Assembly (NCBI GenBank): GCA_934047225.1
Contig: OW203993.1
Location: 22,520,069 to 22,584,068 of the forward strand
Direction of reading: 5' to 3'
From: Ypsolopha sequella
Lineage: Eukaryota > Arthropoda > Insecta > Lepidoptera > Ypsolophidae
Length of the DNA: 64,000 nt
Positions 22,945 through 50,305 of this stretch are shown piece after piece (the stretch's first letter is position 1; the number at the start of each line of letters is the position of its first letter). The position numbers were made by a program, and so were the translations under genes. The notes under the pieces were generated by a model. The model did not search any database, was not told the DNA's origin, and was given only the letters and a program-made list of their open reading frames with translations.

Positions 22945-23770
22945 AAGAAGGAACTACTATCCATATCAAAGGGTAATTTGCGCATGTTTCTTCCAAACAT
23001 ACAAAGTATTTCTGAAAGGAAAATATTTCCTTTAGTTTTCAGTTTCTGTTACGGATATCCCATCGGATATTCCAATTATTTCCAATTCTATTGTTAAAGA
23101 AAGGAAAAAAGAGCGGAGGTAATATTTTTTCCCCGCCATCGTTGAATAGTTTCTGCTTTAGATGTTAATTTAAATTTGGAGGATATTTTCATTCGGAATT
23201 ACAAACAATTCCAACAGAAAGTAAAAAGCAAAGGTACCTTTTTTGTTATTGCTTTGTGGAGTTCAAATATTATAAATACTCGTATATGTGGTCAAATATT
23301 AGAAAACTTTTATTTGACCATTTAGAATTTACTAGCCTACAATAGAAAGTAATAACGAAATTATTCCATATTTACTTCTTGTTGTTCACAAGAAATAAAT
23401 ATGGCAGGCATTACATTTCGTTACTTATGACTTTCTGTTGTAGGTGGTAATTTTAAACATTCGAGTACAGTACCTTCCGTTTTTACCTTCTGCTGCAGGT
23501 GGATAATTTGGAATTTCGAATAGAAATATCCTCCCAATATTTAATAGAAACCTCTAAAACAGAAGGATACTATGGCAAGAAAAAAATATTACCTCCCCTT
23601 TTTTCCTTCCTTTTGCAAGGGAATAATTGGTCTATTCGATAGGAAGACCCATCCGTAACAGAAGGTGAAAATGAAAGGAAATATTTTCCTTCCAGAATTA
23701 CCTAGTATGTTTGGAAGAAACATGCGCGAATCACCCTCCAATATGGATAGTAATTCCTTCTAATATGGTG
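22945..23770. repeat. Foldback element, arms about 400 bases
   Basis: The left arm (22945-23380) is an inverted, diverged copy of the right arm (23390-23770). Examples are GAAGGAACTACTATCCATAT against ATATGGATAGTAATTCCTTC, and TTCTTCCAAACATA against its complement near 23705. The centre is a tight palindrome at about 23385 (CTTCTTG to CAAGAA). The whole would fold into one long stem. It encodes nothing. Confidence 0.8.
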
Positions 23771-24166
23771 TAATTTTGTAGATACACCAACGGGTCATCT
23801 GATTGGAAAGAAAATTCCCATTAGGTATCCTTCCAATATTTAAAATTAACACCTAAAACTGAAGGTAACTATGGCAGGAAAAATATTACCTCCCCTTTTT
23901 TCCTTTCTTTTGCAAGGGAATAATTGGACTATTCGATGGGATGACCCATCCATAACAGAAGGTGAAAAGGAAAGGAAATTACTTTACTTCCAGAACTACC
24001 TTGTGTGTTTGGAAGAAACACACGCAAATACCCTCCTATATGGATAGTAATTCCTTCTAATTTGGTGTATTTTTTACTGATCCTACCAACGGGTCATCTG
24101 ATTGGAAAGAAATTTCTCATTAAATATCCTCCCAATATTTAAAATTGACAGAAGGTAATTAAGGCA
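23745..24166 (+). repeat. Direct repeat unit of about 297 bases, split by the Polinton-like element
   Basis: The start GGATAGTAATTCCTTCTAAT at 23745 recurs at 24042, giving a period of about 297 bases related to the foldback right arm. The second unit is cut at AAGGCA (24161-24166) and resumes at 36528 with GGAAATATTACC, matching GGAAAAATATTACC in the first unit near 23878. Confidence 0.8.
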
Positions 24167-24445
24167 AGTAGGTAGTTATTGTTCGTTCTGGATCATCGAA
24201 ATTAACGGCTCACGGCTCGCGCCGTTCGCTCGACGCTAATTTCGACGATCCAGCACGATCAATAACTGAGTCGATAATTCAAAAACAAAGTACTGTTCAA
24301 CGGACCCGGGTTGGTGAACGCGATGCCAACCTCGCACCAGTATGCAAATTTTGAGGTAACAACACCCTCAGTTACTGGTTCTATTGGTATGAACAGAACG
24401 TACCGTTCAACGGACCCAGGATCGTGAACGCGGTGCCAAACCCTC
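24167..24445 (+). repeat. Left terminal inverted repeat of the Polinton-like element
   Basis: It matches the complement of 36243-36521 with few differences. The outer part (24174-24267) is itself an imperfect palindrome: AGTTATTGTTCGTTCTGGAT pairs with ATCCAGCACGATCAATAACT. The left end has one repeat unit; the right end has about four more. Confidence 0.85.
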
Positions 24446-25105
24446 ACACCAGTGACGCCGCTGCCCGTCACCAGTGTGTTTAGTTTAAGGCCCGGAAATT
24501 CAGGATGAATTAGTGCATTTTTACAAAATTGCAACGTTCATTATCCCGCTGGTTCAAGCTAGTTCCGATCGGACCTACTAAGGCGCGATCGTGGCAATTG
24601 CTAAGTATGAGTAGTTTTCATATTATATATCATAGTACAAGAAAACAAGCTACAATAATAATTCATTTTAATTCAAGAGAGATCTGGAGGTTTGCGAGTT
24701 GACACGTGTGACCTACTATTATAAATTGTTATTTATATTATTTTTTAGAACTGCAGATTTTCGCAATCGGCTAGTTGGTAATTAAAGTGAATCATTTGCA
24801 TTTTCACAAAAAATGAAAACTGTAGTCAGTACAATTACTTGAATATACAGGTTGTTTTTTTTTTCTTTGTTTTAACTTGTATTATTATTATATGTTATTT
24901 CGATCGTGCATAAAACTGAAACTAACGTTGAGAAGCGGATTACCACGATCTTGACTAAATCATAAATAGGAACAGAGTCGCTAAATAACTCCGTGTAGCA
25001 ACGTTGTTCGTGACTTTGCGATTTAGTCACGATCGTGGCAATCCGTTACTTACCAGTAGTTTTAATTTTAGGCACGATCGTCGTACAAAAACAAATTTAT
25101 ATACA
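24446..25105. other. Subterminal non-coding region with a long inverted repeat
   Basis: No gene. GCGGATTACCACGATCTTGA (from 24936) pairs with the segment containing TCACGATCGTGGCAATCCG (to about 25046), with arms of about 27 bases. CGATCGTGGCAAT also occurs near 24587. This may be a replication- or transcription-related structure of the element. Confidence 0.5.
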
Positions 25106-25870
25106 TACTAGCTGTTGCCCGCGACTCCGTCCGCGTGGGTTTGTGTAGTTGTGATAATTACCCTAAGTCCATCCTTGAAAAGTACCCTATGTCCGTCCCT
25201 AGTAATAGCAAAACAGCGTTACTTTCGCAATCAATTATATATTAGTGTGATGTGATGTGATATACAGGATAAGTAATATAAATTTTAGCTATGGAAGCCA
25301 TACCATTTTATGATCAACCTGTAGATACTGACCTAGATAGCATTTCGTAACTTCATAGAGACATTTTGCTAAATCAATAATATTAGTATTTTGTAAATTT
25401 GCGAATTCAGCCGCATTATTTCAGGTGCAGAGGTTGTCAACTATTATGTTTTGAATGAATTATGAAAACAAGCTAAAGCCGCTGCTTCGCCGCAGAAAAA
25501 ATTAATTAATTTTCTTGCGAATCTGCATGCTTAGTATGTGCTTAACACATTGTCCTAGGACAGCGATAGACATACAATTTTCAATCGGACACTCTGTAAG
25601 TGGTTAGTAAGGTTCTTTGACCCTTTTTGTGAAGTTAGTATTTTTTTTTCCCTGCATCTGCAAGCCCAGCCCGGTCAATTTCTATGGGAAGTTAACATTT
25701 TATTTTGCTATATTACCAAAACGTATTATCGATCTGTGTCACTTACAGACTCTCCAGTATGAATTTGACTATATCAATAAAAGTCACCTTACTATCATCA
25801 ACTGCAGCAGAATAAACAAAACAGAAGTGTTCCAAAATAATAAATGATAAGAGATATCATTATACGTTTA
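25106..25870. repeat. Dispersed lepidopteran repeat region
   Basis: Begins ACTAGCTGTTGCCCGCGACT, a very common end of lepidopteran repeats. No reliable gene follows. A related end in the opposite orientation is at about 27020-27058 (CACGCGGGCAACGTCGCGG). Confidence 0.55.
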
Positions 25871-26503
25871 CGATCCCGACACACCTCTTTCACTTCTTCC
25901 GTATTCATCAATCGAGGCTTTTACCCAACGAAAAGTACAGTACGTTTTTATTTATATATAGAGAAACCTACCTACATATTCAGCAAAAACTAAACTGGAG
26001 CATAAAAAAATCGTTAACAACACCTGACATGCGTCGTTAATTTTTGCTTTATAAACTACTAAAATTTGACGAATAATTATCAGTTTTCTACGCTCTACCT
26101 ACAAGTCAGTTAGTACTCGTACTTGACAAAGTCATCGCTCGGTTCCGCTGCTGCCTGCTGCTGGTGCTCCGATTGCTACATTCTGTTGCTGTTGCTGTCA
26201 AACTGCGAATCCACTGTCTTCAGATAATGTTAGTAAGTTTGATTTATGTTTTTAATTTCTTTATACCATGTATTTTTTTAAATGACTGATGTCGACCCTT
26301 CTTTCATATAAAAGTATAAAAAGTATTATTTACGTTTAATCACTTATGAATATCATCATCCAAGTCAGCCCCTAACAGCTCTCATAATTTAATTACTTTT
26401 ACCTATTACCTAGGTAATGTTTAAAACTGTATTCAGTAATCAATTAATATTGTAGGCATGATTTGTGGAATGTAACAACTTATTGAGTTTGTGTAATTTT
26501 CAG

Positions 26504-29477
26504 GTCGGACTCTGATTACAACAACAGGAAGTCAGTAGGAAGGGAGAGGAGCCATTTCGAGACGGACGACGAGGTAGCTTTTGCGAGGTATGTATTTTCC
26601 CCATAATATTTTCTTCGAGTGTTTTCTGTCTTCTCCTATGGGTTTCCAAGGTTTAAAAGATTCAATCATACTACATCCCGATCGATTGTTAGGTGGGGCG
26701 ATCTTTGAGCTTGTAGGCCTGTCTGCCAACTTTTACATTGTAACTTACTGTTAAACTAAGTATCAGTACACATAAATAAAGTTGAAGTATCTGTCTGTCT
26801 GTCTGAAATGGAAAACTCAAAAACTACTGATCGGATTGCCGTAAAATTTTTGTATATGATGGATAATAATGTTGATTAACATTTAGGCTACTTTTTTGTG
26901 ATATCTTGATAAGTTTGTAATTCATACAAATTATATTTTGATTAATTGTGCATTTAATGCTAGGATACCGTCTGAAATTAATTAACACTACATTTTATAT
27001 TCCTCGAGATCGGGAAAATCGGGATCCACGCGGGCAACGTCGCGGAGCGTGCGCTAGTAAACGATACGTATGAGCATGTACTTGCATTGCTTATATTTTT
27101 TATTCTATTTTTCAGGAAAAAAAATCCTGAGCCTAAAAGTACTAAAAAGCAGATCGTCGAATCAGACACCGAGTCGACATCTGTTCAGAGGTAAATATCG
27201 ACTTTTATTTATTGTAGAACGCTCAGTTAATATATTTATTTATTTTTTCTTCTCTCCCCTTCATAAACCAAGCAAATGCTTACCTTCTTATGGATGGGGA
27301 ACTTAAGTTTGAGAAACATGTCCTAGAGCTGGCCCGCAACTACTTCTATAGACTGAAGGTCCTGTAAAGGATACGTAACTTCCTCAGCGTTGAAATGAGG
27401 CTCAAACTCTGTGAATCTTTAGTCCTCTCAAAACTAAATTATTGCATAACAGTATATGGACCCTGCCTCTTAGCTAAGTCGCAGCGCATAATACAACGGG
27501 TTCAAAACGCTTGTGCACGATATTGCTTCTACATTCCTCCCAGATCTCACGTCACGCCTTTTCTGAACGACGCCCGAATTTTGAAAATGGCATCTAGACA
27601 GAAGCTCTATTTTGCCACGCTGCTTTTCGGGGTAGTAAAAACACAAACGCCAGAATACCTTTATGAAAAACTGACCTGGTTTTCCTGTAATAGGACTCGG
27701 AGATGTGGAGTTCTGTTGCGTGTGCCTCACCATCAGTCCGCTGCATTCCGGGGAAGTTTCCGTTACCTCGCATTCAAGTGTTGGAACAATCTTCCCCTCC
27801 GTTTCAAAAACTTGTGTCGAAACATTATTTTATAAAAAAATACAAGAAATATTTACTAATTGCTCAAACTGAAACTTCATAAATTTTCGTCCATAAATAT
27901 TATATATTTTTTAAACTTTACTCTTCCAACTTACTTGTCGAATTAATCCTTAATAATGAATGACCAACTAAATATTACAATTACGAAACAAATATTTAGT
28001 GTACATGGATCGGTTTCATATTAATCACAAGCCCACCACGCTACAAGCACTCTCTTGTAAAATAGTACAACGTCATAGAAATCATTTTAATTCTCCCTAC
28101 TTCCTTACACAATTTTGCTTTACCCACACGAATTATGTTTTAAGTTTTATGTTATTTTATTTATTTATTTTATCCACCTTATCTGTTTTTTTGCTAGGTA
28201 TATAAGAATTCCACATAATATTTTAGGTAGTAGCTTTTATTTTTATTTTTTATAATTTTTTTTTTGTTTAATTTTATATACTTTTTCAAGTTTTTTACTT
28301 TAATATTTATGCATAATATAATATTTTTTAGGCGACGACTGAAAACCGACGTTGTGGTCCTTTACGGCCATAACATAAATGTCGAGTCGTAGCCCTTTTT
28401 GCTACCGTGGCACATAGGTACACATCAACACATTAATCAGAAACTAATGTTTTTGTTATGTTATTAAAAGACAGGTTTATGTTTATGTGAAATGCATTTT
28501 TGTTTTTTCTATTCTTATTCTTTTATTCTCCGTATGTGTTAATTATTAACTATTTTAGAGATAAGCTGAATTTTGTATTCCTCATTTTTGTGTATGTATG
28601 TGTTATGGTGCTTAATAAATGTTCTATCTATCTATCAATAACTTGTTTTTTCAGGAAGAAAAAGATTTCGTGCCGCAAACCACCAGCTGCAAAACGCGTC
28701 GTCGAGACGGACAGCGAGTCAGTTAAGAGGTAAATATCGACTTTTTATTTGTACTAGTAGAAAGCTCCCTATATATAATTATATGTATTGGTATAATTTG
28801 TTTTCTGTGCTCTCCATAAATAAAGCAAATGCTAACTTTCTTTTTTAACGTTATTTATATTTTTGTTTATTTAGGAACAAGCCAAAGCCGAGAGCATCCA
28901 AGCGAGTTCACGACTCGGACGACGAAACGGAGTCTAGGTAAATATACATTTATCTGGGTTACATGTTACTCTCTCCACCATCACACTTTGTTTTATTATT
29001 ATTTTTCTGCTAGTAAAAACCTCCCCTATCTTAAACCAGGCTTTTAATTCATTTTATGTTATTAATTATATCCTTATTTACAGACGCAAACAGGCTAAGG
29101 AGTCAAAGACTCCAGTGAAACCGAAGCAGCCGCAGAACAAGAAGTCCGACTCGTGGCGGTTGTTGGACTCCGAGATGAAGGACGAAGCGGTGACAAAAGT
29201 AGTGCCGCTAAAGTCGTCGTATACCAAGCGGGTTGCTGACGGCGTCGTACGCCGCACCGCGGACCTAGAGGGGGATCTATTTTTGGACCTCAAATTATAT
29301 CAGGTGGATGATATAAAAAAAATCCACCCCCTCAAACGGCACGAAAAGGCGGTGCTGGGTTTGCGCTTCCAGGCGGACCACGACTTGCCGGAGTTGGCTT
29401 TGTTGCAGCAGTTATTGAAGCGCTGCAAGGGAAGCTTCATCGACGAGGGCTATTTCTTTGCGGATAAAGTAGCTTAA
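26504..29477 (+). CDS. Five-exon gene with serially duplicated basic/acidic exons, unknown function
   Basis: Exons: 26504-26587, 27116-27190, 28655-28729, 28875-28937 and 29084-29477. Every intron has GT-AG ends and interrupts the same codon position (AG|G or AG|A, always Arg), so internal exons can be duplicated or skipped without a frame change. Exons 1-4 repeat one theme: a Lys/Arg-rich start followed by an acidic Ser stretch (ESDTESTSVQR, ETDSESVKR, HDSDDETESR). The last exon adds a longer domain (DSWRLLDSEMKDEAVTKVV; KAVLGLRFQADHDLPELALL; GSFIDEGYFFADKVA) that I do not recognise. AATAAA lies at 29522. The basic/acidic repeats suggest a nuclear, chromatin- or nucleic-acid-associated protein with possible casein-kinase sites, which is inference. 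The start codon is not found; ATGTTA|GTAAGT at about 26229 does not join in frame. The gene lies wholly inside the Polinton-like element. Confidence 0.75.
26727..27060. repeat. Dispersed repeat in intron 1
   Basis: Starts around AATAAAGTTGAAGTATCTGT with a (TCTG)n stretch, continues with ACTACTGATCGGATTGCCGT, and ends CACGCGGGCAACGTCGCGGA. This order is common in lepidopteran non-autonomous repeats. Confidence 0.55.
27255..28640 (+). mobile_element. 5'-truncated Jockey/CR1-type LINE in intron 2 of the five-exon gene
   Basis: The C-terminal part of a LINE reverse transcriptase is present: ELARNYFYRLKVL, then LVLSKLNYCITVYGP, IQRVQNACARYCF and HVTPFLNDARI. The frame ends at 27835 and has one stop near 27365. 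A long T-rich 3' tail includes GGCGACGACTGAAAACCGAC and ends AATAAATGTTCTATCTATCT at about 28636. It lies fully within the intron, leaving both splice sites intact. The same family recurs at 56185-57229. The catalytic part of the RT is missing. Confidence 0.8.
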
Positions 29478-29561
29478 GTTTAGTTAATTTATTTATTGTT
29501 TCTAGCTAATGATATATTTTAAATAAAAAGTAAGTCTTAGAGTATATATATTTTTGTTTTT

Positions 29562-29592
29562 AGACTCCCGACGAAAGGGTACTTATTTCCAT
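29562..29592 (+). repeat. Short inverted copy of the DNA polymerase gene end
   Basis: AGACTC followed by CGAAAGGGTACTTATT (29572-29587) is the complement of 33162-33177 plus GAGTCT at 33187-33192, which lies in the last codons of the polymerase gene. The polymerase gene is therefore bracketed by an inverted pair 3.6 kb apart. Confidence 0.75.
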
Positions 29593-29791
29593 AATTTATT
29601 TTCACTTAAATAACAAACTATAATATAATGATTCTAACCATCAATAAATAACAATAATAATTTATTATAGTTGTAATAAAATAAAAATTCTAATAAATTA
29701 ATTCAAATAAAATTTGATTCAAATCAAAATTAATAAGACCTTATTAAATCAGTTTCAGTATTTCCATCAATATTTTTAAATTACTATAAAT

Positions 29792-32700
29792 ATGTCAAAT
29801 AATAAATCGATATACTGTTCAGTGTGTGATGTGTCTGTTAAAAGTAAATCTTTTTCTTTTCACTTGCGAAGTACAGTGCACAAAAATCCCCCCGCAATGT
29901 TTCTACGTTCGCTGCGCAGGCGTGTTCGCCAGCTGATAGATGCGCGACTTGACTCGTTTATCAGCTTGAAGGTAAATTTAGAGTTATTTGCAGAGTTTTC
30001 ATTACCAAAAAATGATAACCGCGAAGTTAAATCATTTGCAACCGGGAATATCATAATTAATAAAAATTACGATTTTAATGAAATTTATAACAATGTTGTT
30101 GATCAAATTGTCGCTAGAGTTGATGAATTTCAAGAAAGGGATAGTGGGTGGAGCTTTGTTGCTAACTCTTATCTTGAGGTAAATGTTAATAAATTTAATC
30201 CTCTACGGGCTTCTGGATTCATTGAACTGCCTAAAGCTATAAAATTGAAACATGCATGCATCAACATTAAAAATGCTGATCAATTTTGTTTTCTGTGGTG
30301 CGTTATGGCATCTCTATTTCCTGCTCAACAAAATTCAAATAGAACATCGTCATATCCTCATTTTGAAACTTTACTAAGAACGAAACATATGACATTTCCA
30401 GTTGGCTTGAAGGATGTTAAATCATTTGAAAAATACAATGTTAACATCAGTGTTAATATTTATGGTCTCCAAAATAATAAAACTATTGTTGGACCCTTAT
30501 ACAAGACTAAGCAAAAAAGAAAACATCATATTAACCTATTGTTTTTGGAAAACGGCACACAGTCACACTACTGCCTGATAAAGAATCTAAGTCGGCTCGT
30601 TAGAAGCCAGATAACAAAAAATCATAACAAAATATTTTTTTGCGATGATTGCATGCTGTTTTTCTCAAACAACACTAAACTTAACGATCATAATTGCGGT
30701 GGTGTTAAAACAACTCTTCCTGAAAAAGGTTCTTTAATCCAGTTTAAGCATTTCGAGCGAATGCAAGATATGCCATTTGTTATTTATGCTGATTTTGAAT
30801 CGTTGTTGCAACCCAATACGGATGAGCAAAAATCTAAATATACAGAAAATTTACAAAAACATATCCCCGTTGCATTTGGTTATTACATCGTATGCTCTTA
30901 CGATATATCATTAAATCACTACGTTTCTTATCGTGGACCTGATTGTGTACAAGTTTTCTTAAAAAATCTGGGTGCAGACGTAGTCAAAATAAATAAAATA
31001 TTAAGCAAGCAACTAGATATGCTACCCCTAACTAATTCCGAGTTAAAAAGCTTTTCTGAGTCTACTTTTTGTTATCTTTGTAATAAGTTGTTGTTTAAAG
31101 ATAAAGTTAGAGATCACTGTCACCTAACAGGACACTATCGTGGAGCTGCTCATTCTTATTGTAACATTAAGTTTAGGCTTCCTAAGTTTTTGCCAGTTTT
31201 TTTCCACAACCTGTCAGGCTATGACTGTCATTTATTTGTACGAGAGTTGGGTGAGTTGCCCGGCAACATAAATGTAATTGCAAAAACAAAAGAAAATTAT
31301 GTCTCGTTTACAAAATTCTTTCCAATCGGTAAAAATGAATTCATGGCGGTACGTTTTGTAGATTCTTTAAAATTTTTGGGTACGAGTTTAGAAAAAGTAG
31401 CAGAAAATTTAGCCATTGAAGATTTCATTCATTTGTCTCATTTTTACCCAGAAAAACAACAATTTGATTCATTAAGACGTAAAGGAATTTATCCCTATGA
31501 ATACATGAGTAATTGGGAATGCTATAAAGAAAAAAAAATACCCCCGCGTAAATGTTTTTACAGTAGTTTAACGGACGAAACTGTTTCAGAGATTGATTAT
31601 GCTCACGCTCATCATGTATGGCGATTGTTCTGTTTGTCTAACCTTGGTGAATATACTGACTTGTACTTAAAATCAGATGTGTTGTTGTTGACTGATATTT
31701 TTGAAAGTTTTAGGCGCACATGTAAAAATAACTACAAATTAGATCCTGCATTTTACGTTACCGCACCTAGCTTAAGCTGGGATGCAATGTTGTTAAAAAC
31801 AGAAGTTAAATTGGAGCTAATTGAAGATTTAGGAATGATTCGAATGATACAGCGTGGTATTCGCGGAGGTATTTGCTTATGTTCAACTCGCTATGCCGCT
31901 GCTAATAATAAGTACTTATCTAACTACGATCCAACCACACCAGATAATTACTTGCTCTACATAGACTGCAACAATTTATACGGTTTTGCTATGTGTAGTT
32001 ACTTACCATACTCCAATTTTGAATTGATTGACAAACCCAATTTTCAGGTTTCGGATATTCTCTGTTTAAAAGACGATTCTAAAGTAGGTTACATTTTAGA
32101 GGTTGATTTAGAATACCCTGAAACATTACACAGCATGCATAATGATTTACCTTTCTATCCACAAAAATTTGCACCTTCTGGGTCTAAAACTTCAAAGTTG
32201 ATACCAAATTTGTATGATAAGTATAACTACGTCATACACTACGTTCATTTGAAAACTTGTCTCAAGCATGGTTTAAAGTTGAAGAAAATCCATAGAGCTA
32301 TAAAATTTAATCAAAGTCCTTACTTAAAACAGTATATAGATTTGAACACGGAGTTACGACAAAAAGCTAAATCTCAATTCGAGCAAGACTTTTTTAAGTT
32401 GTTAAATAACAGCATTTTCGGAAAAACTTTAGAAGACACGGAAAAAAGGTTAAATGTGAAGCTTGTGAATCAATGGTAAGACGTTGGTAATAAAACAAAA
32501 AAACACTTTTGCGCGGAACAACTTATAGCTAGACCTAATTACCATAGCTCAACTATTTTCACAGATAATTTCGTTGCAATACAATTAAAACCCGAAAAAA
32601 TTACTCTTGATAAACCTATTTACATTGGATTTTCAGTTTTAGAAATATCTAAAAGTCATATGTATGACTTCTACTATTCTGTTATGAAACCTTATTATGG

Positions 32701-33201
32701 TTCTAATTTAAATATGGCGTACACAGACGGATAGTTTATTACTTTGTGTACAAACAAAAGACGTCTACAAAGATATTAAGTTAAATTTTCTAAAATACTT
32801 TGACACTAGTAACTATGATGATAAGAATGTTTACGACATACCTAAGCAAAATAAAAAGGTCCCTGGATTATTTAAAGATGAGCTAGGAGGACAACTTATA
32901 GTTGAGTTTGTTGGACTCAGGTCTAAGCTTTACAGTATCAAAACTGAAAAAGCCGAATTGAAAAAAGCTAAAGGGACAAAAAAATCTGTTGTAAAAAAAT
33001 TAAAATTTATAGATTATAAAACTGTGTTAGTTAGTGGATAGTTGCTTATTGAAGAAAAAGAATATGATTTTCAAATCACTCAAACATGAGATTTTTACGC
33101 AATCGCTTAACAAAGTAGCTCTTTCATTTAATGACGATAAGCGCATTATACTTAAGGATAAAATAAGTACCCTTTCGTGGGGCCACGAGTCTGCTTTACT
33201 T
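29792..33201 (+). pseudogene. Type B, protein-primed-type DNA polymerase of a Polinton/adintovirus-like element (broken)
   Basis: The main open part is 895 codons (29792-32479). An N-terminal Cys/His region (YCSVCDVSV) is followed by the 3'-5' exonuclease motifs YADFESL and FHNLSGYDCHLF, an HCHLTGHYRGAAHSYC zinc-type motif, polymerase motif A DCNNLYGFAM and motif B LNNSIFGKT. A TAA at 32477-32479 stops the frame. Coding similarity goes on, but motif C (YTDTDS in the family) is damaged by a two-base loss near 32728, and further stops occur near 33040 and 33090. The recognisable end is at about 33201. Total span fits the family's 1,100 or so residues. The enzyme would copy the element's own DNA from a protein primer. 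With the palm motif broken, this copy is inactive. Confidence 0.85.
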
Positions 33202-33796
33202 TAGTATAGATTAAGATCCTTTAAATAGTTTTATATGTTTTATATTGTAAGTAATTTTAGGATTTACTATTAATATTTACATATTAAATATGTATGTACC
33301 AATATTTTTTTTTTGTTATTTACCAACTTATCTTTACTTTTATTTGCTCAGTAATTTAAGGTAAGCATAATGCAGGCACAATGTCCTTGGTTTGTAACTC
33401 GTTAACTTAACATTTATAAAGATAACATGTCTGAATTTTCAAGTTTGATCAAATTACAGTGCAGATCGAAGTGCATGGTTGCAATAATAGTAATATGATT
33501 CTTTGTGCAAACAACACGTGAAAGTTACACGCGTCTAGTTTAATGAACTGCACTCCAAAGTAGGTCATAATGACGAACAAATCTTTAAAAACACCTGACT
33601 ACACGATTCGTGCCTAGGTAAGTTTATCATCACTTTAAAGCAAGAAGCGGGACGCAGAGGACTTGGACGACTAACTTCACCAAGCAACATCGTCGCGTTG
33701 TATTATATTGTAAGTATTAATATCAATGACCGATTAGCAGCTATTACTTTTTTATTTTGACTTTTGACAATGCTAATATTTTATTTGTTTCAGAAA
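33202..33796. other. Non-coding stretch with a possible spliced leader for the next gene
   Basis: AT-rich to about 33590. Then comes sequence of higher GC (GCAAGAAGCGGGACGCAGAG) ending at a good donor TATATT|GTAAGT near 33710, and an acceptor TTTGTTTCAG just before 33794. This suggests a non-coding exon and an 83-base intron before the ATG at 33797. Confidence 0.45.
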
Positions 33797-34170
33797 ATGG
33801 ATGCTACGGACTTATGGTTACAATGTGCTCAGCCACTAGAAGATTACGACGACTTGCGGGAAGTTCCCACTCCAACACAGAATAGCAACGAAAAAAAGAA
33901 AATAAAGAAAAGCAAATTAGAACTTCTAAAGAAGCAAAAACCAAAAGTGTCATCGTCATATATTATGTAATATCAAAACCGTCAAAAAGGCCTCTTCGAA
34001 TGGTAAAGATTGAAATATTCGACCTCAGTGGAGCGCATACTTCAACGAACTCAGAAGATAGTGTTGTTAGTGCGCAATATCTAGCCACGGAAGTCGTAGA
34101 TGAGATTATGGATATGTCTGACAATCTGGTTAATAAAATTTGTAAGAATTTGTGTAATGATGTTATTTAA
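33797..34170 (+). pseudogene. Unrecognised small Lys-rich protein, frameshifted
   Basis: Starts MDATDLWLQCAQPLEDYDD directly after a splice acceptor. A Lys-rich run follows (EKKKIKKSKLELLKKQKPK). A one-base shift near 33955 ends the first frame, and the neighbouring frame continues with KPSKRPLRMVKIEIFDLSG and VVDEIMDMSDNLVNKICKN to a stop at about 34168. AATAAA follows at 34200. I do not recognise the family. It lies inside the Polinton-like element, between the polymerase and the minus-strand capsid/exonuclease pair, and may be an element gene. Confidence 0.45.
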
Positions 34171-34397
34171 TCAACTCTTTTTAATATGGAACTTGACAAA
34201 TAAACGTTTTAACGTTAATGTATTTGTTTGTTTAAAATTTTTACTTGGTAACAATAGATTAAATGAAAGAAAGTAATATTATGAATATAAGATTTATTTC
34301 AGAATTATATTCGTAAACTCAAAACAAAATAATCTAAACTATTTACTAAAAGATACATTAATATAACTTTATTGTGTTATATACAACGACATTTTGG

Positions 34398-34873
34398 TTA
34401 TCTATATACCATTTTTTTAATAACTAAAACGTTTCTTAATGCACAGTGTATTTTATGGCTTAAACAACTAAAACTATTAGTATCATCATAATTATAATTT
34501 TTATGGAGGTCTACCAATTTAGGACAACCTATTTCTTCCACGTTTATAACGGTACAGCTGTCACATAACTCTTTAACCCATTTACTTTTTTCAAAACCCT
34601 TAACCAGAACATGTTTATTTTCTAGATATTGTTTGATGATCTTTTTGAAATGAATATAATCTATGTGTCCTTCTGACCATCGGTATCCCAAATTACTTTC
34701 GATCCAGTTTACATGTTTTTTTCAGATCTTGTTAAATTTTTATACGCGTACGGAGGTTTTATGAGAAATACTTGAGTATATTGAGCAGTAGCTATTGCAA
34801 GTTCTTTGATGATAAAGTTATTTTTATCATTTTTTAATCCTTGCACATCGGCAACTAAGGTTTTTGCATTCAT
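34398..34873 (-). pseudogene. Exonuclease-fold-like protein of Polinton-type elements, frameshifted
   Basis: The minus-strand start ATG at 34873 overlaps the stop of the capsid-like gene (ATGA). The N-terminus has LVADVQGLK and FIIKELAIA, followed by FLIKPPYAY and LTRSEKN. A frameshift near 34713 leads to WSEGHIDYIHF, HVLVKGFEKSKWVKEL, VEEIGCPKL and SHKIHCALRNVL. The pattern D-V-Q...KE at the start and a late H...CALRNV resembles DnaQ-type exonucleases with an altered first motif. I infer that fold from motif order only. Similar proteins occur as repeats in insects, in my memory close to Polinton-like genes. AT-rich sequence of unclear content lies between 34170 and 34398. Confidence 0.5.
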
Positions 34874-35410
34874 GATATTTTTCTTACAACATTGCTTAAC
34901 GGTTTATATTCGATTAAACACTCGTTTAGTATAAGACAATACGCAGAGGTTTGATCAGGTATTTCTATTTCACTTTCGAGCTCTAGCCGCACATTAACCA
35001 CTGGTCCAGATTTGAGGTTATCGCTTTGTCTTGAACAATCAATAACAAAAAGAGGTGCTAAATATTTAAACTCCTTGGCACTTAACAAGGGTTTGGCTCT
35101 TTGACCGTAATAAGACTGTTGAAATCTTAATCTTAATCTTAAATCATATAATATAGCTATCATATTGTTAGAAAAACTCGCATTCATATTATCGTATGGA
35201 AAGTAGGTTGAATTTAGGTAAGTACACTTTAACATCACTTATATTACAATGATCAAATTGCGACATGTCTTTAGATGAATTATTCTTTCTATTGGTCTGT
35301 AAACCCATAATGACATACCTAGGTTTTTCAATCTGTGATGATGTTTTCTGTTTTAAAAATTTCATTTTGGTTTGGGTATGGACCACTTGAAAATCGGTGT
35401 CAGACTAAAT
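34870..35410 (-). pseudogene. Double-jelly-roll-like capsid protein fragment (C-terminal part), frameshifted
   Basis: The minus-strand frame has SQIEKPRYVIMGLQTNRKN, MSQFDHCNISDVKVYL, then (after a shift near 35215) NSTYFPYDNMNASF, QQSYYGQRAKPLLS, LFVIDCSRQSDNLKSGPV and AYCLILNECLIEY, ending VVRKIS. I recognise this as the C-terminal part of the insect double jelly roll-like proteins related to the major capsid proteins of Polinton/adintovirus-type elements. The N-terminal half is lost: frames close at about 35410 and the terminal repeat array begins near 35490. This copy cannot build particles. The identification rests on memory of conserved motifs and should be tested with a structure-based search. 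Confidence 0.6.
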
Positions 35411-35489
35411 ATTATCTTGAAGCTTGCAAAATATATGAATACATAGTTCATAGGAGCTATCGATAAAGTATATTGAGAAGTACTTTGTT

Positions 35490-36521
35490 TTTGCCCAATC
35501 GATTCAGTTATTAATCGTGCTGGATCGTCGAAATTAGCATCGAGCGAACGGCGCGAGGGTTTGGCACCGCGTTCACTATCCCGGGTCCGTTGAACGGTAC
35601 GTTCTGTTCATACCAATCGAACCAGTAACTGAGGGTGTTGTTACCTCAAAATTTGTATACTGGTGCGAGGGTTTGGCATCGCGTTCACCAACCTGGGTCC
35701 GTTAAACAGTACTTTGTTTTTTACCAATCGATTCAGTTATTGATCGTGCTGGATCGTCAAAATTAGCGTCGAGCGAACGGCGCGAGGGTTTGGCACCGCG
35801 TTCACGATCCTGGGTCCGTTGAACGGTACGTTCTGTTCATACCAATCGAACCAGTAACTGAGGGTGTTGTTACCTCAAAATTTGCATACTGGTGCGAGGG
35901 TTTGGCATCGCGTTCACCAACCTGGGTCCGTTGAACAGTACTTTGTTTTTGACCAATCGATTCAGTTATGATCGTGCTGGATCGTCAAAATTAGCGTCGA
36001 GCGAACGGCGCGAGGGTTTGGCACCGCGTTCACGATCCTGGGTCCGTTGAACGGTACGTTCTGTTCATACCAATCGAACCAGTAACTGAGGGTGTTGTTA
36101 CCTCAAAATTTGCATACTGGTGCGAGGGTTTGGCATCGCGTTCACCAACCTGGGTCCGTTGAACAGTACTTTGTTTTTGACCAATCGATTCAGTTATTGA
36201 TCGTGCTGGATCGTCAAAATTAGCGTCGAGCGAACGGCGCGAGGGTTTGGCACCGCGTTCACGATCCTGGGTCCGTTGAACGGTACGTTCTGTTCATACC
36301 AATCGAACCAGTAACTGAGGGTGTTGTTACCTCAAAATTTGCATACTGGTGCGAGGGTTTGGCATCGCGTTCACCAATCCGGGTCCGTTGAACAGTACTT
36401 TGTTTTTGACCAATCGATTCAGTTATTGATCGTGCTGGATCGTCGAAATTAGCGTCGAGCGAACGGCGCGAGCCGTGAGCTGCTAATTTCGTTGATCCAG
36501 AACGAACAATAACTACCTACT
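35490..36521 (+). repeat. Right terminal repeat of the Polinton-like element, expanded about fourfold
   Basis: GTGCTGGATCGTC recurs at 35517, 35746, 35974, 36203 and 36432, a period of 228-229 bases. Each unit consists of two related halves of about 115 bases (GCGAGGGTTTGGCACCGCGT and GCGAGGGTTTGGCATCGCGT). The last 279 bases are the inverted partner of 24167-24445. Units are nearly identical, so the expansion is recent or kept uniform by conversion. Confidence 0.9.
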
Positions 36522-36800
36522 AAGGCAGGAAATATTACCTTTCAAATTTTTCCTTCCTTTTTGACTCAAATGGAAATTATGTAAGAAAATATACTAGAAG
36601 GAACAGGAACGATTAGAAGATAACGTTTTTCTACCATTATGGACGGTAAAGTTAGAAGATAACTATTTAGAAGAAAAATTAGGGTGGAAAAAGATCTTCG
36701 AATATTCCATCTTAATAGGATGGAATTTTTCCTTCTGAGTCAAAAGGGATGGACCTATCTTCTGTTTTTGGAAGATTATTTTTTTCAGTGTAGGCTAATT
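36522..36800 (+). repeat. Remainder of the interrupted foldback-related unit
   Basis: Starts with the target duplication AAGGCA, then GGAAATATTACC, continuing the unit broken at 24166. GGAAGATTATTTTTTTCAGT ends it. Sequence from 36800 to 37090 is AT-rich and without a gene I can support. Confidence 0.7.
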
Positions 36801-37090: not shown

Positions 37091-39483
37091 ATGCAGTGTT
37101 CTCTGTGTAAAACGAAATTCAAAGATTTCAAAACATATTTCATACATTTAAACTATATACACAATATAACTGATAATTTTAAATGTTCTTTTAAAAATTG
37201 TGACAGAGTTACCACATGAAATATTCCTTAAAAAGTCATTTAACTAGTTGTCATAGTGTTTTTGTTCCAAATATCCCGAAAAATGCCTGCTTATCTGATA
37301 CTGCAAAGGATCCATGCAATGAATCTAACATAAAAGCTAATGTAAATCCTGACAACAAAGGAGGACCTCCCAACGTACCCAAAACAACTGAATACAAAAA
37401 CGAGGTTGTACCTATGATGACACAATTTAAAAAGAAACTGGATAAATCGTTGCTCTTATTTTTATCTCAATTATACAACATTTCTAGTTTACCCAGAAGT
37501 GTGATTCAAACTATAAAAGAGTTAGTGTCTGGTTTGTTTTCATCAGAAGCTATTCAAATACTACAACAAGTATTGAGTACGGTATCTGATGAATTTACGA
37601 CAATGCTGTCAATGATTCAACATTTATTCGATAGCTTAGGAACGGATTACAAGAGGCTTGAGTGTTTTAAGAATTTAGACACTTATATTGAGCCTATTCC
37701 AAAAACAATAGGGGTGTCCAAAGATACCAAGCTTGTGAACGGTAATGTCGAACTGACGTTAGTAAATAGATGCTCGTGTATTTTTCCACTATGGAAACAA
37801 CTAAAAGTATTTTTGGAGGTACCTAAGGTATTAGAAGTTATATTAGATCATCAAAATAATGTAAGCAAAGACAGCCCTACCTTAAGAAATATTGTTAATG
37901 GTAGTTGCTGGAAAATTGTAACGAAAGATTTTGATATAAATGTCTCTTTAGTTATACCCTTGACACTGTATTACGATGATTTTGAGTCTGGTAATCCATT
38001 GGGCAGTCATGCAGGAAATCAAAAGATTGGTGTTGTATATGCAGCTATCGCTACCATTCCACCAAATTTCAGTAGTCGATTAGAAAACGTTTTGCTAGCA
38101 CTCATATTTTATACTCAAGATAAAATTGCATTTGGCAATGAAGCTGTCTTCGGCCCATTAATTACGGAAATGAAATCCTTGCAAGAGGAAGGAATTACTT
38201 TAAAGATTAACGGAAACAATGTTCTTGTTAAGTTTTGTCTAGCTAATATATCTGGAGATAATTTAGGTATCCACTCTATATTGGGTTTTCATGAAAGCTT
38301 TTCATCAAATATTTTCTGTAGATTTTGTATAACTCCCAAAAATCTTACAAAGACTAAAGAGCGCCCTGAAAACTTTCGGAAAGTGACAGATTACGAAAGA
38401 GATTGTCAAAACCGGTTAGGTATAAAGGAAGTATGCATATGGCATCAATTAAAATTTCATGCTTACAGTAATATGTCATGTGATGTAATGCATGACTTGT
38501 GTGAAGGTGTGCATAGATACGATATGTGCTTGATAATTCAGAAACTGCTCGAGAGCAAATACTTTTCATTAGAAACATTAAATTCTCGTATAAAGTTTTT
38601 TACTTACTTGGCATCCGAAAAAAATTGTCTACCACCTGTTTCTAAGTAAAATTTATTGAATAAGCAGTTTTGATGTTTTCCGCATCTGAAATGTTATGCT
38701 TAGTCCGAAATTTTAGATTTATCGTTGGCGATTTAGTAGATGAAAATGATCCGATATGGTTGCAGTATTTAAATTTGTTGGACATCACAGACATGATGGG
38801 AAGTCATCCCAGGTATTCACTTTGGAACTTTTAGATTACTTGGAAAATTTGGATTACTTGAAAAACTGAAAAATTTGTTTGAAGCTTTTTTAAAGCCAAA
38901 ACACCATTTCCTCCTTCACTATCCCCGAGTAATTAAGAGAACTGGCCCTCCATTTCTTATCAGTGCATTCAAATTTGAAGCAAAGCATAAAGACCTTAAA
39001 GCAACAGCTCATTCAATTTCATGTCGAAAAAACTTGCCCCTATCACTTTCAATTCGACATCAGTTGAAAAGTAGTTATAAACTAACTTCGAATAGTGGAT
39101 TTTCAAATAATATTTCCTGGGGTAAAGAAATCCATGTAAATCATTTTTCAAGGGAAATAATTGAAGCTGAACACATATGTGTCGACCACTTCGAAATTAA
39201 TGGTGTTAAATATAATAACACGTATGTTCTTTTGGTAAACTATGAAGATGACTATCCAGAGTTTTATAAAATTGAAAATGTTTTTCTAATGCAAGCTGAT
39301 AAAAGTCTGGTATCATTTTTGTGCACATCCTTAGAAACTATTGGTTACTCTTCTCATTTTATGGCTTATCAAGTAAAAATATTATCCAAATCGAAACTTG
39401 TACATCTATGTGATTGTTTTTGTAACACACCTACTATGATTAGAAAAATTAATAGACATTTCTATGTCGATTTAAAAAGCTAA
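37091..39483 (+). pseudogene. Zinc-finger DNA-transposase-like protein, three frames
   Basis: The N-terminus carries a C2H2 finger (CSLCKTKFKDFKTYFIHLN with a following His) and a second finger that is split by a one-base shift near 37212. A long domain follows with LTLYYDDFESGNPLGSHAG, ALIFYTQDK, FCRFCITPK and SCDVMHDLCEGVHRYDMCL, open to 38649. The 38640-38874 segment keeps similarity in another frame (FIVGDLVDENDPIW). The last part (38875-39483) has FLKPKHHFLLHYPRVIKRTG and FKFEAKHKDLKA. The MHDL..EGV and HHFL.HYPR motifs are shared by a family of repeated proteins in insects and cnidarians that I think are related to EnSpm/CACTA (Tnp2-type) transposases. The superfamily assignment is tentative. 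Confidence 0.6.
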
Positions 39484-39736: not shown

Positions 39737-41841
39737 ATGGACAAAAAGAAACGTAAGATATCGCTAACCACAAAGAATGTAGAAGAGACTGTCAGAAACT
39801 TAGCTGACATTTCTGATTTATCAGACACAGATTCTGAAGACGACTCATGCTATGTCAACAGCCTTACCTTAATCAACTCGACGATTGCATAATTGAACAG
39901 CGTCTTGAACATATCTTTGGCTTAAATGATATATTGAATGATGATGAGTTAGAAGAAACACCCACAATAAAGGACCAGCAGATTTCGACGGATTCCTTAC
40001 TGACAATTTTAGGAGAAACATCTCATAACACAAATAAAGATAAAATAGATAGTGCTTTGCCAACTTTTTTAGATTCTGAGCATGACATACATACAACAGT
40101 TCAATCACAAGACAAATACACTCAAGAACAAGAGATTCTCTCGTCTGATGAAATTCAACAAGATAATCTTGAAAATATCTCACCAAATATTTCTCTCCTT
40201 GATCAAAATGTGACCATAAGCAGACCATCCGGCAATTACAACATTGATATTCCTATGGAAGAGTTCTTGGCAGATTATCAACAAGAGCCTGAATCTCACA
40301 ATCAGGTACGCAGAGACCGTTCTCAACCAAGAGTATGGAAGACAAAAATGAGAACTCATGATGTTCTTCTTTTTGAAAAGCTTTTTAAGCCCAATGCCAC
40401 TGACACACACAAAACTTCACCAGTGAGTATTTTCGAAAGGTTTTTTCCGGATGAATTGATTCTAGTAATAGCAGAACAAACAAATAGATACGCCCGTCAA
40501 AAAAATAGCAATAACTGGAAACCAGTTACTGAAAAAGATATTAAGGCGTATCTCGGAGTCTTGATCATGATGAGCTTAAATCCTCTTCCAGACATGGAAT
40601 TGTACTGGTCTTCAGATCCGTTCTATTACAACAAAGAAATTGCCCAGGTTTTCCCAATTGTGAGGTTTAAAAAAATAACGGAAAATCTCCACTTAAATGA
40701 TAATGAACTAAGGTTTCTTGAGGTTTGAGGTTCTTCTGATTACGACAAACTATATAAACTGAGACCCATTATCACAGAACTGAACAAGGTTTTTCAGAGA
40801 GAAGCACACAATTCTCAAGTGCAATCGATTGATGAGTGCATGGTGAAATTTAAAGGGCGCAGTTCGCTAAAGCAATATACGCCAAAAAACTTATCAAAAG
40901 AGGGTTTAAAGTTTGGGTAAGGTGCGACGCGAAAACCGGATACTTGTACCAATTCGACGTATATACGGGCAAAAGCGACAGCACTGAAAACGAAGGACTT
41001 TGCTACAATGTGTTTATGAAACTCTGCGGTAATATACCAAGAAATACTTTAATTGCCTTCGATAATTTCTTCACCAGCTGCAATCTTATGGAAGATCTTT
41101 ACGAAAAAAATATTTATGCAGTAGGGACAGTCAGATGCAATAGGAAGGATCTACCTGATATGATAAAGAAAAAGCAATCAAAACCACTGAGATTGGAAAA
41201 ACACCAATTCGCAGTTTTGTTACTGCAGAGCCGATTACAGCCATTAAATGGTTTGATACTAAAGAAGTTGCAGTACTCACCACAGCCCATCAGCCACCTG
41301 ATGTACTACTTGTGAAGAGAACCCAAAAGGACGGCTCTAAAGCAGATATACTTTGCCCGAAAGCCATTGCTTCGTATACCCTTAGCATGGGTGGGGTATT
41401 TGACCATTTCAGATCATCGTATCCAAAAAACCATAGATCAAGAAAATACTGGATGAGACTTTTCTTCTTTGCGTTTGATGCAGCAATAATAAATGCATAT
41501 ATTACCTACAACTACACACATGTTGCAACGCTGCATGGACACCGAGATTTTAGGTTGCGCTTAGCACGTGGCCTAATAGACAATCATACGACACGTAAAG
41601 GACAAGTACAAACGGTGTAATTTTTAAAAATAAAAAAGGAGGTCATTTTGGCGTACCGGATGAAATTCGCCTACTCAATGCGGGCATACACTTGCCACAA
41701 GAAATTAACACTTACAAAAGATGTAGATTTTGCAGCACAAAACAGAAAGAACAGAGGACAAAAATACAATGTTCCACCTGTGAAGTAGCTCGGTTTGCTA
41801 AGAACTGCTTCAAAAACTTTCACACTGTTCCACCTCAATGA
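39737..41841 (+). pseudogene. piggyBac-type transposase, multiple frameshifts
   Basis: The start MDKKKRKISLTTKNVEE lies just after a splice-acceptor-like TTTACTTTCAG. An acidic N-terminus follows, then the DDE core: IKAYLGVLIMMSLNPLPD, IDECMVKFKGRSS (first Asp), LIAFDNFFTSCNL (second Asp), and SMGGVFDHFRSSYPK, where the third Asp normally sits in GVD..D. Two residues seem missing here, so the third catalytic Asp is probably lost. The C-terminus has the Cys-rich domain of the family (CRFCSTK, CSTCEVARFAKNC). Breaks: shift near 39850, TGA at 40726-40728, shifts near 40885 and 41200, and a TAA near 41619. TTAA target sites were not assigned. It would cut and paste at TTAA without footprints if intact. 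Confidence 0.85.
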
Positions 41842-47354: not shown

Positions 47355-48487
47355 TATACTTTTTGTGTTCATTTAATTTTAAGGTCACACACACATAAAC
47401 TCAGTATTTAGGGTACAAACATTCGGTTTTGCATTGTTTATGTAATTTCCCCACCGTTTCCACTACTATAATTTTAAGGTTTTCTTTAGTTTTTTGTTTT
47501 GATTTTTTATTTTGTTGCATCTGCCTTTTTAATGTAATTATCCTTCTCGAGCTCACGCCGACTGTTCATTTAGTTTTAAGGTCACTCAATTATTTTAAAA
47601 TGCACACACAACGAACTCAGTATTTAGGGTACATACATTCGGCTTTGCATTGTTTATGTAATTTCCCCACTGTGTCCACTCCTATAATTTTAAGGTTTTC
47701 TTTAGTTTTTTGTTTTGATTTTTTATTTTGTTGCATCTGCCTTTTTAATGTAATTATCCTTCTCGAGCTCACGCCGACTGTTCATTTAGTTTTAAGGTCA
47801 CTCAATTATTTTAAAATGCACACACAACGAACTCAGTATTTAGGGTACATACATTCGGCTTTGCATTGTTTATGTAATTTCCCCACTGTGTCCACTCCTA
47901 TAATTTTAAGGTTTTCTTTAGTTTTTTGTTTTGATTTTTTATTTTGTTGCATCTGCCTTTTTAATGTAATTATCCTTCTCGAGCTCACGCCGACTGTTCA
48001 TTTAGTTTTAAGGTCACTCAATTATTTTAAAATGCACACACAACGAACTCAGTATTTAGGGTACATACATTCGGTTTTGCATTGTTTATGTAATTTCCCC
48101 ACTGTGTACACTCCTATAATTTTAAGGTTTTCTTTAGTTTTTTGTTTTGATTTTTTATTTTGTTGCATCTGCCTTTTTAATGTAATTATCCTTCTCGAGC
48201 TCACGCCGACTGTTCATTTAGTTTTAAGGTCACTCAATTATTTTAAAATGCACACACAACGAACTCAGTATTTAGGGTACATACATTCGGTTTTGCATTG
48301 TTTATGTAATTTCCCCACTGTGTACACTCCTATAATTTTAAGGTTTTCTTTAATTTTTTGTTTTGAATTTTTATTTTGTTGCATCTGCCTTTTTAATGTA
48401 ATTATCCTTCTCGAGTCCACTCCAAGTGTTCATTTAATTTTAAGGTCACTCAATTCTTTTATTATGCACACACACATTAACTCAGTA
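47355..48487 (+). repeat. Satellite, five units of exactly 216 bases
   Basis: The CGGYTTTGCATTGTTTATGT site recurs at 47424, 47640, 47856, 48072 and 48288, each 216 bases apart, with partial units on both sides. As 216 is 72 codons, an open frame runs through all units and into the gypsy RT. The encoded 72-residue unit is hydrophobic ([20 protein letters not shown]). No family match comes to mind, and I read the open frame as a side effect of the unit length. Confidence 0.9.
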
Positions 48488-50305
48488 CACCATATACGTA
48501 CTACGCCTGGGCCGCCAGTATCCAGTACGCCTCGTCGTCTGGCGCCGGACAAATTAAAGATTGCCAAGGCAGAGTTCAACACAATGTTACAGAATGGCAC
48601 CTGCAGGCCATCAGAGTCACCATGGTCTTCACCACTCCACCTGGCTCCGAAGAAAGACGACGGATGGCGACCGTGTGGCGATTACCGGATGCTTAACGCT
48701 CGAACAATCCCGGATATGTATCCAATCCGTCACATCCAGGATTTCGCACACAGCCTATCTGACTGTACGATCTTCTCTACCATTGATATGGTAAAAGCAT
48801 ACAATCAGATCCCTTTGAACCCTGAGGATATCGCGAAGACCGCTATAACGACGCCGTTCGGACTATACGAATTCCCTTACATGACGTTTGGGCTTCGTAA
48901 CGCCGGACAGACGTTTCAGCGCTTCGTCGACGAAATGCTCAGAGGGCTGGACTTCGTGTATGCTTACGTCGACGATATTTTGGTCTTTTCACAGGATCAA
49001 GAGACGCATAAGCAACATCTACATCAATTGTTTCGCAGGCTCAAGGACTTCGGCATGGTAGTGAATACAGCAAAGTGCGTCTTCGGCGTATCCAAGGTTA
49101 CCTTTCTCGGGTATCGCATAACAGCTGAAGGAACTACACCACTGCCCTCTAAGGTTGAGGCAATTCAGAGATTCCCTACGCCAAAAACAGTCAAAGAGTT
49201 GCGTCGTTTTTTGGGGATGCTCAACTTCTACCGCAGGTTTATTCCGGGTGCAGCCAAACATCAAGCACCCCTAAACGCCCTACTGACTGGCTCGGTGAAA
49301 GGTTCCCATCCCGTACATTTTTCCACACAGGAAACGGAAGCTTTCCAGGCGTGTAAAGACGGTCTTTGTCAAGCCGCTATGCTGGCTCACCCAGACTGCC
49401 ACGCGAAACTCGCTATAGTGACTGATGCGTCAGATAAAGCCATCGGCGCAGTGCTACAGCAGATGAAGCATGACGAGTGGCAGCCGTTAGCTTTCTTTTC
49501 ACGGAAGCTGAGCCCAGCACAGGTAAAATACTCGCCTTACGATCGTGAACTTTTGGCGATATACGAGAGTGTGAAGTACTTTCGACACATGGTGGAGGCC
49601 CGTGATTTTACGATCTATACAGATCACAAGCCTCTCACCTTTGCCTTCCATTCCCGTAAAGAGAATTGCTCCCCAACGACAGTTCAGACACCTAGACCTG
49701 ATAGCCCAATTTACTTCAGACATCAGGCACATCTCGGGTAAGAATAATGTCGTGGCGGATACACTTTCCCGTATCGACGAGATCTCGCAACCTGTCACCG
49801 CCGAGAAAATAGCTTCTGCTCAACTTGCTGACCAAGAGCTTGACCAAATACGAGGAGCAGGCTCATCACTACAGCTGGAGAAGGTAAAGATTCCTGGTTC
49901 TCAGAGTTATCTGTACTGCGATGTCAGTAGCACCACTCAGAGACCATTTATCCCCAAAGACCTACGCAAGCCAGTGTTTGACAGTCTCCACTCCTTGAGC
50001 CATCCTGGCGCGAATGCCACTGCAAAGTTGGTTGCAGAGCGTTACGTCTGGCCTGGGGTTAAGAAGGACTGCCGAGAATGGGTACGTAACTGCTTGGCTT
50101 GCCAACGCTCCAAGGTTACTCGCCACGTCTCCACTCTTCTAGGTAATTTCAAATTACCCCGGGCAAGGCTGGCATTTATTCATATAGACCTGATTGGCCC
50201 CTTACCACTATGCCAAGGTTTTCGCTATTGCCTCACAGCCGTCGATAGATTCACACGTTGGCCAGAAGCAATACCATTGGCTGATATGACAAGTAGGAGT
50301 CGGGT
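48488..50305 (+). pseudogene. Ty3/gypsy retrotransposon pol: RT, RNase H, partial integrase
   Basis: Starts abruptly after the satellite with [22 protein letters not shown] motifs are [41 protein letters not shown] and the catalytic [11 protein letters not shown]. RNase H has [15 protein letters not shown] and YTDHKPL. A frameshift near 49690 leads to the integrase: the zinc-binding LHSLSHPGANAT and CLACQRSK, then the first catalytic Asp in FIHIDLIGPLP. The frame is cut at about 50305, before the second Asp, by a minus-strand element. Gag and protease are missing and no LTR was found. The enzyme set would copy RNA to DNA and insert it; this fragment is dead. Confidence 0.9.

Follow-up and report, generated by a model that had tools for sequence, protein, structure and literature searches.

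A degraded copy of a lepidopteran Polinton/Maverick element, probably laid out like Spodoptera Maverick 2, with both ends kept in the genome of Ypsolopha sequella

In this study, we report the analysis of a 64,000-nucleotide stretch of the genome of the lepidopteran Ypsolopha sequella (assembly GCA_934047225.1, contig OW203993.1, forward-strand positions 22,520,069 to 22,584,068; hereafter the window, in whose own numbering coordinates are given), and of an insertion within it which we identify, with a probability of roughly 0.9, as a lepidopteran Polinton/Maverick element in a degraded and internally deleted copy, probably with the layout of the Spodoptera 'Maverick 2'. The element is of a known kind, and this copy is a fossil with both ends kept and its genes broken or missing; all three genes recognised in it, those for a polymerase, a capsid-like protein and a small protein, are broken. 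A first-pass annotation, made from the sequence alone, had described a complete-ended Polinton/Maverick-like element. This description was borne out by the ends, the fold of the type B polymerase (PolB), its relatives and a double-jelly-roll fragment, but not for the interior, which is degraded and in which most genes were not found.

The extent of the element was defined by the following features:

24161..24166, no strand: left copy of the target site duplication AAGGCA, by exact sequence match
24167..24453, + strand: left terminal inverted repeat
36235..36521, - strand: right terminal inverted repeat, aligned to the left one
36522..36527, no strand: right copy of the target site duplication AAGGCA, by exact sequence match

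Both AAGGCA copies directly abut the terminal inverted repeats on their outer side, and the element between them is 12,355 bp long. The chance of an exact 6 bp match at two fixed places is about 1 in 4096. Alignment of the left terminal repeat with the reverse complement of the right one gave 273 identical columns out of 289, the latter including 4 gap columns, and blastn gave 281 columns at 96%. The tips read AGTAGGTAG at the start and CTACCTACT at the end, beginning with AGTAGG and finishing with CCTACT. The inverted copies of about 280 bases with an AG start and a CT end, and the AAGGCA duplication on both sides, are therefore as first annotated, and terminal inverted repeats of tens to more than 1000 bp and a 6 bp target site duplication are both features by which a Polinton/Maverick is recognised. 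In the accessible text of PMC8097293, intact vertebrate Mavericks are 12,723-24,620 bp long, with 6 bp duplications and terminal repeats that span 46-1,447 bp, and most vertebrate Mavericks carry (AGT)2//(ACT)2 tips, (AG)3//(CT)3 being another motif of the vertebrate elements. The 279-287 bp terminal repeats of the present element fall inside that range and its tip motif agrees with the first of these vertebrate motifs at 5 of 6 positions, so that the ends are, as judged by sequence, Polinton-like and one base in six off the commonest vertebrate motif. Six IMG/VR contigs that matched an 18-base tip pattern were taken for chance matches, because likeness to the terminal repeat essentially stops at 18 bases: beyond these, a comparison at expectation values (E) up to 10 gave only single matches of 15-20 bases (E 3.1; L007, L008 and L011). 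An assembly artefact was also considered and was rejected on reasoning alone.

The element lies in repetitive host DNA. Its left flank is part of a host repeat of about 299 bp, of which 23527-23851 and 23826-24150 are 87% alike, and the following copy was used for comparison:

23821..23925, + strand: uninterrupted copy of the host repeat that was the insertion target of the element, by alignment of the joined flanks

The sequence near 23868 had been put forward as an empty-site check inside the window. When the flanks were fused with a single AAGGCA and aligned to 23821-23925, a score of 98 was obtained, against 46 for the best of 200 base shuffles, with most of the score supplied by the left flank. 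The check holds to this extent, but the right flank contributes more weakly, the uninterrupted copy reads ATGGCA, one base off the duplicated AAGGCA, and the 'empty site' is a neighbouring paralogous repeat copy, not the same locus without the insert in another individual.

Inside the element, the largest gene encodes a DNA polymerase:

29792..32479, + strand: main polymerase piece of 895 codons, by homologues and a protein-primed PolB fold
32480..33201, + strand: remainder of the polymerase gene, split into three pieces that overlap (32480-32731, 32712-33038 and 33031-33201), with frames changed

At E up to 0.001, searches with the polymerase piece returned 2080 homologues; identity to the best two is 77% (1174 amino acids) and 83% (1131 amino acids). 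Organism names were attached to 13 among the 120 homologues listed (Pectinophora, Loxostege, Plutella, Amyelois, Aricia, Cydia, Helicoverpa and Spodoptera), all of them Lepidoptera; the Pectinophora protein P0004, encoded on a 171-kb contig, is 73% identical. A model of the 895-residue piece was built with 46 relatives (predicted local distance difference test score, pLDDT, 77.8). Comparison of this model with PDB structures placed phi29 DNA polymerase first (E 2e-11, with low TM-scores of 0.29/0.43), and comparison with viral models placed densovirus and adintovirus polymerases first (E down to 2e-41). By its predicted fold the polymerase is of the protein-primed type, which upholds the type B polymerase of the first-pass annotation, although the gene is broken, as had not been stated there. 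Sequence searches gave no relatives when the piece and its alignment were compared with viral contigs and no match when the polymerase was compared with phage records; searches of the sequences of solved structures with the piece and with its profile likewise gave no polymerase, the best matches (E 0.71 and 1.4) being to unrelated proteins.

Near the start of the polymerase, 33-48 codons present in six full-length relatives are absent (40 relative to P0004, 38 relative to P0001), an in-frame stop terminates the 895-codon piece, the remaining quarter of the gene is in changed frames, and polymerase motif C is interrupted. Given these broken frames, no working polymerase is expected from this copy. 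PF02945 was matched at its cut-off (23.8 against 23.6 bits); for the Spodoptera POLB, the accessible text of PMC5803895 describes a similar stretch, likened to recombination endonuclease VII.

Two further genes were recognised on the opposite strand:

34870..35404, - strand: C-terminal half of a double-jelly-roll capsid-like gene in two frames, PF21738 positions 161-314 of 316
34398..34873, - strand: small gene in two frames, homologue of P0133 (165 amino acids), by sequence match

The double-jelly-roll-like domain PF21738 was matched at 34873-35238 (E 3.7e-30, positions 215-314 of 316) and, in the second frame of the same gene, at 35192-35404 (E 7.3e-14, positions 161-217). The N-terminal half was not found in the element, so that of the capsid protein expected of a Polinton/Maverick the C-terminal half only is represented. 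The similarity to P0123 extends to 35347 and that to the Pfam domain to about 35392, i.e. the capsid-like gene stops some 80-125 bp short of the repeated sequence of the right end, which begins at 35473. A gene that starts mid-domain (about position 161 of 316) so near the right-end repeat looks like a deletion scar. Twelve homologues of the fragment were found, the sole organism-named one being from Parnassius. The ATG of the small gene overlaps the stop codon of the capsid-like gene (ATGA), and its one homologue, P0133, is 73% and 63% identical across its two parts; the searches with both of these genes were such that only proteins near the query length could be found. The small gene gave no Pfam, NCBIfam or significant PDB sequence match, and neither P0123 nor P0133 had relatives among the viral contigs. 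The predicted fold of P0133 (mean pLDDT 36) was not used. As described in the accessible text of PMC5803895, the Spodoptera Maverick 2 has eight small tandem open reading frames (ORFs), the last being ORF7 (404 amino acids) and ORF8 (158 amino acids), followed by POLB (1162 amino acids) on the opposite strand, and it is to ORF7 and ORF8 that the capsid-like and small genes would correspond.

The remaining genes were sought by a Pfam scan of all 71 stop-to-stop frames of at least 45 amino acids between 24450 and 35480, which did not cover shorter pieces. Matches of sub-threshold score to DUF3074, Tox-HDC, Mu-like_Pro, zf-MYST, HTH_45, TAP35_44 and DUF4896 inside the element were taken for chance. 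No Pfam match to a minor (penton) capsid was obtained in the 71 frames; the insect form may have no Pfam model, so this was a weak test. Because the rve integrase was not found within the element, the copy is classed as a defective derivative and not as an intact Polinton. Degraded copies are the rule at least in vertebrates, where they make up 96% of Maverick loci according to the accessible text of PMC8097293.

Additionally, genome contigs were scanned with the polymerase alignment, giving six distant loci whose best segments are 34-43% identical. Their contigs are filed under bacterial metagenome-assembled genomes, among which they are probably eukaryotic or viral contaminants. An rve integrase adjoins the polymerase in two of the six, L005 (E 7.9e-10, convergent with the polymerase) and L003 (E 1.9e-5 for a partial gene, whose 25.3 bits fall below the Pfam cut-off of 32.6), which ties this type of polymerase to Polintons, from two loci only. 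Separately, a BRO-N gene lies in the contig of another of these loci, together with a C2H2 gene whose match to VRR-NUC is sub-threshold (L001:5471-6339).

Several observations weigh against the identification. The rve integrase, the packaging ATPase and the Ulp1-type protease were unmatched in all 71 frames, and a tblastn comparison of two integrases from related loci with the window gave nothing below E 0.7. No rve was found in four of the six distant loci (flanking frames of at least 80 amino acids were scanned in L001, L002 and L004; L006 was too short and was not scanned). At 12,355 bp the element is below the 12,723 bp of the shortest intact vertebrate Maverick in the accessible text of PMC8097293. 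Support for the empty site from the right flank on its own is modest: across six comparisons (three host-repeat copies at two lengths each), its score was reached by 0, 0, 1, 1, 1 and 5 of 1000 block shuffles. Moreover, the - strand genes are tentatively equated with Spodoptera ORF7 and ORF8 by order and size, and not by sequence.

A degraded Polinton/Maverick could have arisen as follows. The ancestor would have been a linear DNA in replication, with a terminal protein as the primer at its AGTAGG... tips, and an rve integrase would have inserted it, either its own before the deletion or that of an intact relative. The ATPase, integrase, protease and minor capsid genes, with half of the capsid-like gene, would then have been lost in a deletion next to the right end, after which the inner portion of the right-hand terminal repeat may have been amplified to 4.3 copies; a retrotransposon would also have inserted, and point decay would have broken the remaining parts. 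A copy with intact ends might in principle be moved by the integrase of another element.

Alternatively, the copy could belong to a compact lineage that has always consisted of only the polymerase, the capsid-like protein and the small gene and that borrows its integrase from full-size Polintons. No trace of integrase or packaging genes was seen in the frames scanned, both ends are kept, so that the copy could be mobilised in trans, and exon-like sequences occupy the place of other genes. We nevertheless regard such a lineage as improbable, as the capsid-like gene starts in the middle of its domain close to the right-end repeat, and three genes are broken.

The ends of the element are palindromic, and the right one is extended by a tandem array:

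24174..24267, no strand: palindrome at the left tip, hairpin starting 7 nucleotides from the terminus, DNA fold z -6.5
36421..36514, no strand: palindrome at the right tip, DNA fold z -7.4
35479..36472, no strand: 4.3 tandem copies of a 229 bp unit, extending the right end inward

The outer 100 or so nucleotides of each end fold into a single long hairpin that starts 7 nucleotides inside the tip (-29.6 kcal/mol at the left and -34.3 kcal/mol at the right; none of 200 shuffles did as well at either end), while an inner control stretch gave a z of +0.57, with 143 of 200 shuffles as good. The two hairpins are not independent observations because both ends are copies of one sequence. The 229 bp unit, whose array the first-pass annotation had not mentioned, corresponds to the inner portion of the terminal repeat (24216-24445) and occurs just once at the left end. 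The tandem units and palindromes of these ends would also suit a Foldback/Galileo-like DNA transposon with inverted ends of tandem repeats that captured Polinton genes; we give this very little credence, since the 6 bp duplication and the AGTAGG//CCTACT tips fit Polintons and no transposase family is among the Pfam matches inside the element. Hairpin-prone tips, the same type of polymerase and best viral fold matches labelled as densovirus would equally suit an integrated single-stranded DNA virus of bidnavirus kind, which is about as implausible, given the double-jelly-roll gene, the 6 bp duplication, the 73% identity to a Pectinophora polymerase on a 171-kb contig, and the lack of parvovirus-like capsid or nonstructural genes, as expected of the Bidnaviridae, among the Pfam matches inside the element.

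Between the left end and the polymerase, on the strand of the latter, a candidate spliced gene was noted:

27116..27190, + strand: exon candidate of 75 nucleotides with GT-AG borders, K/R-rich and then SDTES
28655..28729, + strand: exon candidate of 75 nucleotides with GT-AG borders, resembling 27116..27190
28875..28937, + strand: exon candidate of 63 nucleotides with GT-AG borders, of the same kind as 28655..28729
29084..29477, + strand: last exon candidate, 394 nucleotides, ending in a stop codon
27368..27835, + strand: ORF between the first two exon candidates, with no Pfam match

The three short candidates share one phase, and in the product of each an acidic, SDTES-like stretch comes after a basic one. 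The segments 27154-27289 and 28699-28842 are 71% alike, so an exon and its following intron appear to have been duplicated. In this candidate gene (27116-29477) no first exon was recognised, and NCBIfam and PDB sequence searches with the last exon candidate gave nothing of note. The GC content at third codon positions is 0.42, 0.58, 0.65 and 0.695 for the four candidates in order (24, 24, 20 and 131 codons), compared with 0.307 for the polymerase, 0.39 for the capsid-like gene and 0.25 for the small gene. The higher values suggest a separate, perhaps host, origin, although that of the first candidate is close to that of the capsid-like gene and the comparison has no host-gene yardstick. The intervening ORF resembles the C-terminal part of a non-LTR (long terminal repeat) retrotransposon reverse transcriptase and is taken for the end of such an element. 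More speculatively, and with well under even odds in our estimation, the copy may represent a lepidopteran Polinton lineage that captured a host-like spliced gene at an accessory position between the left end and the polymerase, multiplied its short symmetric exons with their basic and SDTES-like acidic parts, and used its long end hairpins in protein-primed replication. If the spliced gene is present in other copies, it would show how virus-like elements acquire intron-bearing host genes. No hairpin tips or spliced Polinton genes were met in the titles and abstract beginnings of the literature searched, which is no proof of their absence in print.

Other mobile or mobile-like sequences were seen elsewhere in the window. 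To the right of the element, a 477-amino-acid ORF (37216-38649) has a weak, sub-threshold Pfam match only and a transposase-derived look by eye, and a transposase in two frames lies at 39838-41315 (DDE_Tnp_1_7, E 2.1e-25 and 8.9e-22; the piggyBac type). A 459-amino-acid frame at 7073-8449 (- strand) combines DDE_1 (E 4.2e-16) with a Tc5-type DNA-binding domain. At 47399-50345, a 780-amino-acid frame has reverse transcriptase and RNase H domains, its first 360 or so residues being the translation of a 216 bp tandem repeat, and the frame after it is Gypsy integrase-like by eye. At 61615-63681, DUF1759 and a weak match to an aspartyl protease occur in one frame, as they do in BEL/Pao retrotransposons.

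The locus offers a fossil lepidopteran Polinton insertion with clean boundaries, next to which an unoccupied copy of the repeat is available for comparison, and it shows a capsid-like gene of the PF21738 family overlapping a small, uncharacterised gene on the strand opposite the polymerase. Compared with adintoviruses and bidna-like densoviruses, the element shares the polymerase fold, but beyond the polymerase and the double-jelly-roll fragment none of their genes were recognised here. In intact vertebrate Mavericks no introns were observed, as far as the accessible text of PMC8097293 goes, whereas the present element has a candidate spliced gene in an accessory position and is missing core genes. 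Among the closest known systems is the Spodoptera frugiperda Maverick 2, from which it differs in that most of the small genes were not found, the rest are broken and exon-like sequences lie to the left of the polymerase. No homologue of the double-jelly-roll PY protein is reported for the Spodoptera Mavericks in the accessible text of PMC5803895, a statement that would need revision if ORF7 were the PF21738 protein. With the Maverick 2 described there, the present copy agrees in the order, strand and approximate size of what is left of the capsid-like gene, the small gene and the polymerase.

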